Shown: positions 7,946 through 40,087 of the stretch, one piece after another | How positions within the stretch are numbered: position 1 is the first letter of the stretch | Layout of the letters: the number at the start of each line of letters is the position of its first letter | Assembly: GCA_024282035.1 (NCBI GenBank) | Contig: JAMWZR010000022.1 | Coordinates: 1 to 40,087, forward strand | Length of the DNA stretch: 40,087 nt | Source: Nitrosomonas sp. | GTDB lineage: Bacteria > Pseudomonadota > Gammaproteobacteria > Burkholderiales > Nitrosomonadaceae | Direction of reading: 5' to 3' | Made by a program: the position numbers and the translations under genes | Notes under the pieces: generated by a model | Database searches by the model: none | What the model was told of the DNA's origin: nothing | What the model saw: only the letters and a program-made list of their open reading frames with translations

Positions 7946-9847
7946 TTAAATCTCTATCCGCGTCCCCAACACCAGAACCCGATTGGCCGGTAACTTGAAA
8001 TATTCGACTGCACTACCGGCATTTCTGGCCATGGCTGCAAAAATCCGCTCCTGCCACTGCATCATCCCTCCTCCCGGGGAGGGCACGATGATCTCACGAC
8101 TCAGAAAATAGGAAGTCTTCAGCGGCTCAAACTCCAAACCGTGTTGTTCACATAATTTCAGCGCCCGGGGCAAATCCGGTTCATCCTTGTAACCGTAGCG
8201 GATCGAGATCTGATAGCAATTCCCTTCCAGGGGTTGTATCGATAGACGATCTGTATCCGGCACATGGGGAATTTCCAGATACTCAACGGTCATGAATATC
8301 ACACGTTCATGCAATACCTGATTGTGCGCAAGATTATGCAATAGCGCATGCGGCACGCCGTTCATGTTGGATGTCAGGAATACGGCAGTTCCCGACACCC
8401 GCAATGGCGGATTCAGCAATAACGATTGTAGGAAAGGCTGCAACAGCAGGTCGTCAGACCGTAGATGCTCGAGCAGGATTCTCCGTCCCTGATTCCAGGT
8501 CATCATCAGAAAATACAAACTGACGCCAATGACCAGTGGAAACCAACCACCATGAAAAATCTTCAGGATGGTAGCTGCGAAAAAGGTGGTGTCGATCACC
8601 AGAAAAAATCCCGTCGCCAGCAAAGCCACAAATAAGGGATAACGCCAGGCAAAGTGCAGCACAAAAAAAGTAAGTAGCGTTTCCATGACCATGGTCGTCG
8701 TTACTGCCACACCATAGGCCGATGCCAGATTCGCCGATGAGCCAAATCCCGTAACTGCCAGCACCACTGCGCCGAGCAGTAGCCAATTGACGAAAGGAAT
8801 GTAGATCTGTCCAATTTTTTCATCTGAAGTATGACGAATTTCCATGCGTGGCAGAAAACCCAGCTGTATGGCTTGCCGGGTCACGGAAAACACACCGGAA
8901 ATGACCGCCTGCGACGCAATCACAGTGGCTACTGTTGCCAAAGCAACCGCCGGATACAACGCCCATTCCGGAAACAGCAAGAAGAACGGATTGGCAATCG
9001 CCACCGGATTCGCCAGCAACAATGCACCCTGCCCGAGATAATTCAGTACCAGTGCCGGCAACACGCAGCCATACCAGGCAAACCGAATCGGCTTGATGCC
9101 AAAATGCCCCATATCGGCATACAGTGCCTCGCCCCCGGTTACGGCCAGCACCACGGCACCCAGTGCGATGAAGGCAAACCATCCGTTCTCCAGACAAAAA
9201 GTCACGGCATAGAGAGGATTAAATGCTTGCAGAATCTGTGGTGCAACACTGATATTGATAATGCCGGTAACGCCTAACGTTATGAACCAGATCAGCGTGA
9301 CCGGTCCGAATACCGTACCGATCCCACCCGTACCATGCCGCTGCAGCAGGAACAGCGAAACCAGAACCACCACTGTAATTGGTAAAACATAAGGTTGGAA
9401 CAACGGTGTGGCCACTTCCAGTCCTTCCACTGCACTCAATACGGAAATAGCCGGCGTGATGACGCCATCGCCATAGAAAAGTGCAGCCCCGAAAGCACCA
9501 ATCATGAACAATATGCTTCGTAAACGGGGTCGACTGGACACGGATGCGCTAGCCAGCGACAGTAGCGCCATGATGCCGCCTTCGCCATGATTGTCGGCAC
9601 GCAAAAACAATGTGATGTACTTGAAAGTCACAACCGACATGATGGTCCAGAAAATCAAGGAAATGGCGCCCATCACGTTGGCATCGGACAAAGCCAGCCC
9701 ATGAGCAGGATCAAAAACCGCTTTCATGACATACAGTGGACTGGTGCCAATATCGCCATACACCACACCCAATGCCGCGAGACTGAGCGCAGTCAGCGAT
9801 TGAACCTGCTTCGTGGAATCGTCGGGTGCATCAGTGGGATTCGTCAT
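7946..9847 (-). CDS. kup: Kup-family low-affinity potassium uptake protein
   Basis: A 633-residue integral membrane K+/H+ symporter of the Kup/HAK/KT family. The diagnostic N-terminal signature LGVVYGDIGTSPLYVMK is present, about 12 hydrophobic segments fill the first ~440 residues, and a soluble C-terminal domain of roughly 180 residues follows. Length is normal. The start is uncertain: ATG at 9847 (MTNPTD) gives the usual short lead into the first helix, but in-frame starts exist at 9859 and 9916, and none has a clear ribosome-binding site. The gene is divergent from the Gly/Asp-rich secreted protein and convergent with the HsdR-N-like gene. Confidence 0.95.
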   Translation of the reverse strand: MTNPTDAPDDSTKQVQSLTALSLAALGVVYGDIGTSPLYVMKAVFDPAHGLALSDANVMGAISLIFWTIMSVVTFKYITLFLRADNHGEGGIMALLSLASASVSSRPRLRSILFMIGAFGAALFYGDGVITPAISVLSAVEGLEVATPLFQPYVLPITVVVLVSLFLLQRHGTGGIGTVFGPVTLIWFITLGVTGIINISVAPQILQAFNPLYAVTFCLENGWFAFIALGAVVLAVTGGEALYADMGHFGIKPIRFAWYGCVLPALVLNYLGQGALLLANPVAIANPFFLLFPEWALYPAVALATVATVIASQAVISGVFSVTRQAIQLGFLPRMEIRHTSDEKIGQIYIPFVNWLLLGAVVLAVTGFGSSANLASAYGVAVTTTMVMETLLTFFVLHFAWRYPLFVALLATGFFLVIDTTFFAATILKIFHGGWFPLVIGVSLYFLMMTWNQGRRILLEHLRSDDLLLQPFLQSLLLNPPLRVSGTAVFLTSNMNGVPHALLHNLAHNQVLHERVIFMTVEYLEIPHVPDTDRLSIQPLEGNCYQISIRYGYKDEPDLPRALKLCEQHGLEFEPLKTSYFLSREIIVPSPGGGMMQWQERIFAAMARNAGSAVEYFKLPANRVLVLGTRIEI

Positions 9848-10080
9848 TGCAGAAATCATCCAGTGCAATTCGATCAGGAAACGATTGTAAACCCAAAGCC
9901 GATGTTGCAATCGCATTTTCTCAATCTGTCGGCACCAAACTCTCTGGATGAAGTCATAATAAGCATTAACTATTCAGTCTCTGATTCAGCATCCATTCAG
10001 ACAATCTACGATACGATGCTAATCGTAAAAAACCTGAAATGAACGATCTGATTGCACTATTTACGAATACTGGAATTACC

Positions 10081-37274: not shown

Positions 37275-37847
37275 TTAGGAAATTTCAGTAGAACTATCTG
37301 TCTTTAATTTTGTTTTTTCAGGTTTAGTCTCTTTCTTCTTGGGTGATAATACCATAACCATCTGCCGCCCTTCCATTTTTGGAAATTGCTCCACGATTGC
37401 ATGGGTATCCAAATCAGCTTTAACACGCTCCAACAGGCGCAACCCGAACTCCTGATGTGCCATTTCGCGCCCTCTAAAGCGTAAGGTCACTTTGACTTTG
37501 TCTCCCTCATGCAAAAAACTTATCAAGTTTTTGAGCTTGATATTGTAATCCCCTTCGTCCGTATTGGGTCTAAACTTGATTTCCTTGATCTGAACTTGTT
37601 TCTGTTTTAATTTCGCATCGTGCTTTTTTTTACTTTCTTGATAACGAAATTTTCCATAATCCATCAGTCGGCACACTGGGGGACTCGCTGTGGGTGCAAT
37701 CTCAACCAGATCAACCCCGGCTTCTTCAGCCAGTATATTGGCTTCCGCAAGCAGCAATATCCCTAACTGCTCTCCATCCACACCGATCACTCGTACTTCT
37801 GGCACATCAATTTCTTCATTTATTCTTGCAATTTTTTCCTGGACTAT
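37275..37847 (-). CDS. infC: Translation initiation factor IF-3 (AUA start)
   Basis: A 190-residue IF-3. The frame with a GTG at 37805 begins only at VPEVRVIG and would lack the conserved N-terminus. Extending upstream in the same frame gives [20 protein letters not shown], the usual IF-3 beginning, preceded by a stop codon at 37863-37865. No ATG, GTG or TTG exists in that extension before the conserved part. The best start is ATA at 37847, eight bases after a GGAG site (37856-37859). Known infC genes use rare AUU-type starts because IF-3 discriminates against them, giving autoregulation. The C-terminal domain ([20 protein letters not shown]) is complete. Confidence 0.93.
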
Positions 37848-37878: not shown

Positions 37879-39791
37879 TCAATTTTTTGAAATAATTTCA
37901 CTATTCAGGCGTTCTATAAATGCTTGTAACGACATTTTCCCCTGATCCTCTCCTGCTCGATTCCTAACTGCAACCTCATTGGTCTTGATTTCTTCATCAC
38001 CAACAATGATTTGATAAGGTATTTTCTGCAAACTATGCTCGCGAATTTTATAGGTTATTTTTTCATTTCTCAAGTCCGCACTTGCTCTAATTCCCGATTC
38101 TCTTAACTGACTTTCGATTTTCTGTGCATATTCAGCTTGTCCTCGCGAAATATTGAGGATGACTACCTGTATAGGCGATAACCATAAAGGCAATGCTCCA
38201 GCATAATTTTCAATCAAAATACCGATAAACCTTTCCAAGGATCCCAGAATAGCTCTATGCAGCATAACCGGTATCTGACGGGAATTATCTTCTGCAACAT
38301 ATTCCACCCCTAAGCGATCTGGCATTGAAAAATCAAGCTGCAAAGTACCGCATTGCCAAACTCGTCCAATACAATCCTTTAATGAAAATTCAATTTTGGG
38401 TCCATAAAATGCACCTTCCCCGGGTTGTAATTGCCACTCGAGTTTCGCTTCACTTAAAGCAGCTTTTAGTGCTGACTCGGATTTGTCCCATTGCGCTTCT
38501 GTCCCCACACGTTTCTGTGGTCGGGTCGAAAGCTTGACTTGACTTGCAAATCCTTGAATCCAAAATCGGCATAAACAAGCTTCAATAAATCGATAAACGT
38601 CACCACTTCAGTCTGAATCTGATCTTCAGTGCAGAAAATATGTGCATCATCCTGGGTAAATGCACGAACACGCATAATGCCATGCAACGCACCGGATGCT
38701 TCATTGCGATGACAAGAGCCGAATTCTGCAAGACGAATGGGTAGTTCCCGATAACTTCTCAAGCCTTGATTGAAAACTTGAATATGTCCAGGACAATTCA
38801 TCGGCTTGATCGCAAAGTCACGCTCATCGGATTGAGTGGAAAACATGTTTTCCCTAAAATTTTCCCAATGACCAGAGCGTATCCATAGGTTTCTATCCAA
38901 AATAGCCGGGGTACGTATTTCCTGATAACCATTATTATTCAGAATATTACGCATGTACTGCTCAATCTGCTGCCATAACATCCATCCTTTGGGATGCCAA
39001 AAAACCATACCCGGCGCTTCATCCTGTAAATGAAACAAATCTAGCAGTTTTCCAAGCTTTCGGTGATCCCTCTTCTCCGCCTCTTCCAAACGATGGAGAT
39101 AATTCTTTTGATCTTCTTTATTAATCCAAGCCGTGCCATAAATACGCTGCAGCATCTCATTATTAGAATCACCACGCCAATAGGCCCCAGCAACTTTCAT
39201 CAGCTTGAAAACCTTCAGTCGTGATGTGGCAGGAACATGAGGACCTCGGCACAAATCTGTAAAATTACCCTGAGAATACAAAGATAAGTCTTCATTACCG
39301 GGTATGGATTCAATGATTTGTGCTTTATAGAGCTCGCCTTGCTGCTTAAAGAAATCGACAGCTTCTGTTCGTTCCAGAATTCTTCTCTCAATTTTCAAAT
39401 CACGCTTGCTAATTTCAAGCATGCGCTTTTCTATTGCAGCCAGATCTTCCGGTGTGAAAGGTCTTTTATAGGAAAAATCATAATAAAACCCATCTTCAAT
39501 AACAGGACCAATCGTCACTTGCGCTTCGGGAAATAGTTCCTTAACCGCATGCGCAAGCAAATGTGCGCACGAATGACGAATTATTTCCAATCCTTCATTC
39601 TCTTTTTCAGTAATAATGGCCAGATCGCAGTCTGCATCGATTGAGCTATAAACATCCACCAGTTTTCCATTGATCTTGCCCGCAATGGCCGCTCGTGCCA
39701 ACCCTGGACCAATTGCAGAAGCCACATCAAGAACGCTTACAGGCTGATCAAAAATGCGTTCCGAACCATCTGGTAAACGAACAACAGTCAC
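37879..39791 (-). pseudogene. thrS: Threonyl-tRNA synthetase interrupted by a frameshift
   Basis: The gene starts with GTG at 39791 after an AAGGA site and encodes the TGS domain (about residues 1-62), the editing domain with zinc motif [10 protein letters not shown], and the class II core through [16 protein letters not shown]. At about residue 415 the frame breaks: the first frame runs on to a stop at 38466-38468, and the remainder ([15 protein letters not shown] through motif 3 and the anticodon-binding domain) is in another frame ending at 37879. A five-base unit is tandemly duplicated at 38533-38546; deleting one unit restores [18 protein letters not shown] and leaves 1908 bases, exactly 636 codons with stop. 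Because thrS is normally essential, this is either a sequence error, a recent mutation backed by another copy, or something unusual. Confidence 0.92.
38533..38546. repeat. CTTGA tandem repeat causing the thrS frameshift
   Basis: Almost three copies of CTTGA (CTTGA CTTGA CTTG) on the plus strand. Normal ThrRS sequence is recovered with one copy fewer, so this is the site of a +5 slippage-type insertion. Confidence 0.9.
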
Positions 39792-39862: not shown

Positions 39863-40087
39863 TTAATGAGCACTTGCCTTGTACCAACTATTCATCTTTT
39901 GCAAACCATACAGAATTTTAGGCGAGAATCCTATCGCTACAGCATCAACCAAACAATACCAAGCGGCCACACCACTCGGTGGATTGCCTTGGGTCCAGTC
40001 AAAAACCGGTTCTATCGCTGCCCACTTCCAAGTCCCTGCAGCCGTACCAACGATTTCCAGCCAGGTACAAATAAAAAATGCTCCCAG
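39863..40087 (-). CDS. C-terminal fragment of an unrecognised membrane protein, cut by the window edge
   Basis: The minus-strand frame is open from the window end to a TAA at 39863-39865, giving 74 residues. It begins in a hydrophobic segment (LGAFFICTWLEIVGTAAGTW), continues with KWAAIEPVFDW and a GNPPSG turn, then another hydrophobic segment (WYCLVDAVAIGF) and a polar end (MNSWYKASAH). At least two membrane segments are likely. The start lies outside the window. I do not recognise the family. The stop is about 70 bases upstream of thrS on the same strand. Confidence 0.65.
   Translation of the reverse strand: MGAFFICTWLEIVGTAAGTWKWAAIEPVFDWTQGNPPSGVAAWYCLVDAVAIGFSPKILYGLQKMNSWYKASAH

Follow-up and report, generated by a model that had tools for sequence, protein, structure and literature searches.

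Threonyl-tRNA synthetase (ThrRS) is an essential enzyme, and its gene (thrS) is recorded as two adjacent frames in the stretch of DNA analyzed here (the window), which is one whole contig (C95) of 40,087 bases from a draft genome of Nitrosomonas, an ammonia oxidizer. The locus raises the question of whether the break is carried by living cells or belongs to the sequence record. The coordinates of the relevant features are given in Table 1.

Table 1. Features at and around the split thrS gene.
Feature	Positions	Strand	Details
Upstream gene, 3' end	39866..40087	minus	Truncated at contig end; 74 aa left
thrS, whole split gene	37879-39791	minus	1913 bases
thrS first frame	38466..39791	minus	441 aa, GTG start; TGS, SAD, first part of class II core, then out-of-frame tail
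thrS second frame	37879..38508	minus	209 aa from GTG; rest of core and anticodon-binding domain
Stretch open in both thrS frames	38466..38607	minus	142 bases
CTTGACTTGACTTG	38533-38546	minus (thrS)	2.8 copies of CTTGA on the plus strand; coding strand CAAGTCAAGTCAAG; one unit more than in the sister genome G028
infC, translation initiation factor IF-3, downstream of thrS	37275..37805	minus	

The sequence-only reading held that the two minus-strand frames make up one ThrRS, and the ORFs, the TIGR00418 match, and the order of the Pfam domains agree with it. The first frame scored 447 bits against TIGR00418 (bacterial threonyl-tRNA synthetase; cut-off 383.65) over model positions 1–362, and the second frame scored 283 bits, below the cut-off, over the remaining model positions 362–564. 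Pfam searches placed TGS, SAD, and positions 4–104 of the 179 positions of the class II core in the first frame, with core positions 108–179 and the anticodon-binding domain in the second, the stop-to-stop opening of which begins at 38607. Taken jointly, the frames carry the TGS, SAD, class II core, and anticodon-binding domains in the TIGR00418-type order, and both matched solved ThrRS chains, again in order. One uninterrupted ThrRS reading frame was not found at the locus; there are two frames instead. The gene for ribosomal protein L20 lies beyond infC, further downstream, and the 74 residues left of the upstream gene are identical over that length to a 250-aa frame of G028. Of the losses earlier ascribed to the first frame, that of the anticodon-binding domain was confirmed by Pfam, which added the second part of the core, and motif 3 is expected to lie in the second part of the split ThrRS. 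Judged by its domain content, the first frame by itself should be a non-working synthetase.

The break had been placed at almost three copies of CTTGA, and a run of 2.8 copies was indeed located at 38533–38546. The sequence CTTGACTTGACTTG was present a single time in the window and in none of 100 shuffles. Across 518,593 bases sampled from the genome, two perfect period-5 runs of 14 bases or longer were present, one of them the thrS run. The thrS gene of G028 is 92% identical and has five bases fewer at the break, the sole gap over 1913 bases, its coding strand reading CAAGTCAAACTG at this site. The intact G028 gene is 1908 bases long, the length that had been predicted for thrS after removal of one unit. 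A single A/G difference from G028 gives rise to a short direct repeat, CAAG-T-CAAG, in the lineage of the present genome (G000; coding strand, extra unit removed), and such a repeat could yield the extra unit via slippage or a wrong join. A long repeat tract of the phase-variable type was not found in the comparison with G028, as there are only 2.8 copies here and no perfect repeat at the corresponding G028 site.

The genus search covered G000 and 84 relatives, and full-length, stop-free thrS was present in 76 of the 84. Two others (G009 and G053) hold a fragment, the pieces stopping at or within 7 bases of a contig end, and thrS above the cut-off was absent in the remaining six (G020, G029, G041, G044, G050, and G084). 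The break is not conserved among these relatives: the 76 full-length genes are unsplit, and the other eight have either no gene or a contig-end piece. Comparison of G000 with G028, leaving out a few codons at the junction, gave dN 0.020 and dS 0.36 for the first part (415 codons) and dN 0.020 and dS 0.33 for the second (215 codons), that is, dN/dS of about 0.06 in either half, indicating strong purifying selection. The second part is also free of stops in its own frame. With both halves looking constrained and the second half stop-free, the break is either very young or absent from the cells.

A very young break could be a real slippage duplication in thrS without any bridging of the frames, and this is the main rival to an error in the record, although it is clearly the less probable of the two. 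The direct repeat at the site fits slipped-strand copying, and a genuine five-base repeat expansion has been described in umuC of Vibrio fischeri ES114, where umuC was still annotated as a pseudogene after the genome had been corrected (PMC2330054). The two cases are alike in that a five-base repeat expansion breaks a gene in one strain; umuC, however, is described as a pseudogene that also has a nonsense codon (PMC2330054), whereas thrS is essential and shows no second defect. Under a real duplication, the cells would survive on a further intact thrS, be it an unassembled copy, part of a merodiploid stretch, or an accessory ThrRS; alternatively, the assembly would have caught a minority or doomed variant. 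Loss of one unit would revert thrS. A lone break in an essential gene would be hard to maintain as the majority allele, and none of the relatives searched has a stop within a full-length thrS.

A second full-length thrS elsewhere in the genome, which the sequence-only reading had named as one way out, did not emerge from family or DNA searches of the gapped G000 assembly, a result that speaks against a real duplication; only the two pieces matched. A third family match (C79:57379) reached 19 bits in an 883-aa frame, far below the cut-off, and was rejected. The absence carries little weight, since the assembly also lacks prolyl-tRNA synthetase (ProRS) and its 12-kb neighborhood, and gaps in G000 could hide a second copy. 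An extra, divergent ThrRS was found in four relatives: G010 (G010:C142), G011 (G011:C42), G024 (L193 3970-5991), and G034 (L191 3882-5903). A second enzyme is thus possible in the genus, in favor of a real duplication. The divergent enzyme is 54% identical to the G000 ThrRS over the first part, and the two copies compared with each other are 74% identical. Two matches of the ordinary ThrRS kind were present in G040, a genome given as 3% contaminated. In G024, the divergent ThrRS gene lies near genes for a CysRS-like protein, an amidohydrolase, and an ABC ATPase, a neighborhood that by analogy recalls the zinc-shortage (Zur) paralogue clusters described in beta- and gammaproteobacteria (PMC2770081).

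Translation across the break was also considered, as a fixed break bridged by a low-level -1 frame change within the 142-base overlap would give full-length ThrRS. A -1 shift would restore the thrS frame and both frames are open over this stretch, but the break is not conserved among relatives. A strict X_XXY_YYZ -1 slippery heptamer in frame was absent from the overlap, which held only 12 half matches, and so was any homopolymer of at least five bases. The suggestion of rescue by slippage during translation consequently finds no support. An indel within an essential gene is known from rpoB of Escherichia coli, where the frameshift is tolerated through high-level intrinsic suppression (PMC7022156). 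That case involves +1 nt, with suppression by a +1 shift at CCC-AGG-C (PMC7022156); the five extra bases of thrS need a shift the other way, by -1, and such a site was not found. This explanation is very unlikely.

Still less probable is the assembly of two separate polypeptides into a split ThrRS. The cut does fall between two parts of the core domain, and split class II synthetases exist, the alanyl-tRNA synthetase of Nanoarchaeum equitans being listed as two genes (PMC3655853). Both are class II synthetases in two coding pieces, but the N. equitans enzyme comes from two separate genes in a reduced genome (PMC3655853), whereas the thrS frames overlap, contain an extra repeat unit, and have an intact counterpart in the sister genome. 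None of the five Shine-Dalgarno-like tetramers tested occurred in the 25 bases preceding the GTG at 38508, and a start at this codon loses the residues between the break and 38508. The first frame, moreover, has an out-of-frame tail, and 0 of the 76 relatives with full-length thrS has a split gene. Even together, a bridged or a split enzyme has a low probability, and it is highly improbable that the break is the majority allele of a living Nitrosomonas strain in which ThrRS arises through an unrecognized frame change or from two polypeptides.

The condition of the assembly bears in both directions on the choice between an error and a real duplication: missing sequence and a nearby contig end point to gaps, and clean frames in the sampled genes point away from frequent base errors. 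The draft genome comprises 2,930,771 bases in 97 contigs, is given as 98.16% complete and 2.72% contaminated, and its nearest named loci belong to Nitrosomonas metagenome assemblies. ProRS was not found in family searches of the G000 assembly, whereas G028 has a full ProRS, and the 12 kb around G028 proS (L184 5137-6858, G028:C75) gave just two short weak matches in G000; the assembly is missing a sizeable part of the genome. Upstream of thrS, 296 bases remain before the contig end, and the break lies 1.5 kb from that end. No N and no shared contig end were seen, which counts against an error; a shared contig end was dismissed as an explanation, the last 208 bases of the contig having no other occurrence in G000.

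Generally poor sequence quality was likewise rejected for the sampled part, in which the ORF and DNA comparisons with G028 were mostly clean. In a comparison of 151 G028 ORFs of at least 100 aa with the G000 sample, matches at 75% or better were obtained for 130, of which 115 had stop-free cover over at least 95% of their length. Among the 15 that fell short of full stop-free cover, one was thrS and one a CstA gene whose G028 copy is broken. Five others were inspected: in three, every stop lay upstream of the probable start, one was an antisense frame, and the fifth was a short 112-aa frame with a stop close to its end. The further eight were classed by coordinates alone as antisense frames, contig ends, or N-terminal extensions, including two ORFs of 123 and 126 aa at contig ends. 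The reverse test started from 434 G000 ORFs, of which 132 matched and 120 were intact; the CstA and potassium-transporter genes were those inspected individually among the 12 non-intact ORFs. Over 137,277 aligned bases, 47 indels fell within ORFs and 20 were not a multiple of three. Apart from thrS, the non-triplet indels were compensated by a neighbor, lay near gene starts or in ORFs of 106–109 aa, or belonged to the CstA event. Among the parts compared with G028, thrS was the sole conserved G000 gene with a clear internal break. This accuracy of the sampled remainder favors a real duplication and is a point against an error.

Two of the differences deserve separate description. In the CstA-family gene of G028 (L183, G028:C69, near 10220), a five-base deletion breaks the frame about 280 bases from a contig end, and the G000 counterpart (L171 12831-14903) is intact. 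The potassium-transporter gene (window 7946-9916) shows a net 20-base difference from G028 near its 3' end, and the last stretch of the G028 frame is shifted; the domains of the G000 copy are complete, and hence it is not the broken copy.

The contig end itself follows a pattern in the genus. Thirty loci had a listed contig, five of them on chromosome-length contigs, and the other 25 were measured; in 23 of these 25, the contig end lies no more than 1.7 kb from where the thrS match starts. Upstream of thrS in G027, a relative with a complete genome (L185 3303-7567), are genes for a multi-haem cytochrome, a protein lacking any Pfam match, the Nitrosomonas c-554 cytochrome CycA, and a NapC/NirT-type cytochrome, a cluster that we take to be the hao-cycAB arrangement. 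The hao-like gene is present in G027 in three identical copies, and RNA genes, considered as the cause of the upstream breaks, were not found in four relatives. Identical hao copies thus explain better than RNA genes why assemblies tend to break upstream of thrS. The G000 contig stops earlier than most of those measured.

Taken together, these observations favor an assembly or sequence-level error as the origin of the extra unit, the outcome that the sequence-only reading had named as its own refutation and one that we consider probable though well short of certain. The organism would have an ordinary single-copy bacterial thrS, to which the assembled sequence adds one five-base unit, possibly through the joining of overlapping ends, gap filling, or slipped copying at CAAG-T-CAAG. 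The likeliest source would be the assembly or the sequence record, a 97-contig draft with missing pieces, and the living cells would carry intact thrS; we infer that the extra unit is absent from their DNA. The points counted in favor are the intact gene in 76 of 84 relatives, the G028 gene with neither the unit nor any other indel, the dN/dS ratio, the stop-free second part, the missing ProRS and 12 kb, the nearby contig end, and a precedent in V. fischeri. Two points count against an error: a five-base tandem unit is atypical of single-base read error, and an assembler that applies long k-mers to short reads does not normally produce such a unit unless reads contain it.

The precedent is version 1.0 of the V. 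fischeri ES114 genome, in which thrS was among the split essential genes, recorded like the present gene as two adjacent ORFs, and appears in the table of corrected loci, a frameshift change having fused the two (PMC2330054). There, resequencing revealed the error (PMC2330054); here the indel is a five-base tandem unit in the assembled sequence. The authors of that report suggest that assembly quality could be gauged by interrupted essential genes (PMC2330054). A literature search for Nitrosomonas and ThrRS returned no paper on a split thrS by title. Treating the split as an artifact accords with the more probable reading without proving it. Fixation of the split in living cells would mean that an essential synthetase tolerates a frameshift midway through its catalytic core. 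As recorded, the broken essential gene close to a contig end, together with the lack of ProRS from the assembly, is a flag that the record should be checked before claims of gene loss are made.
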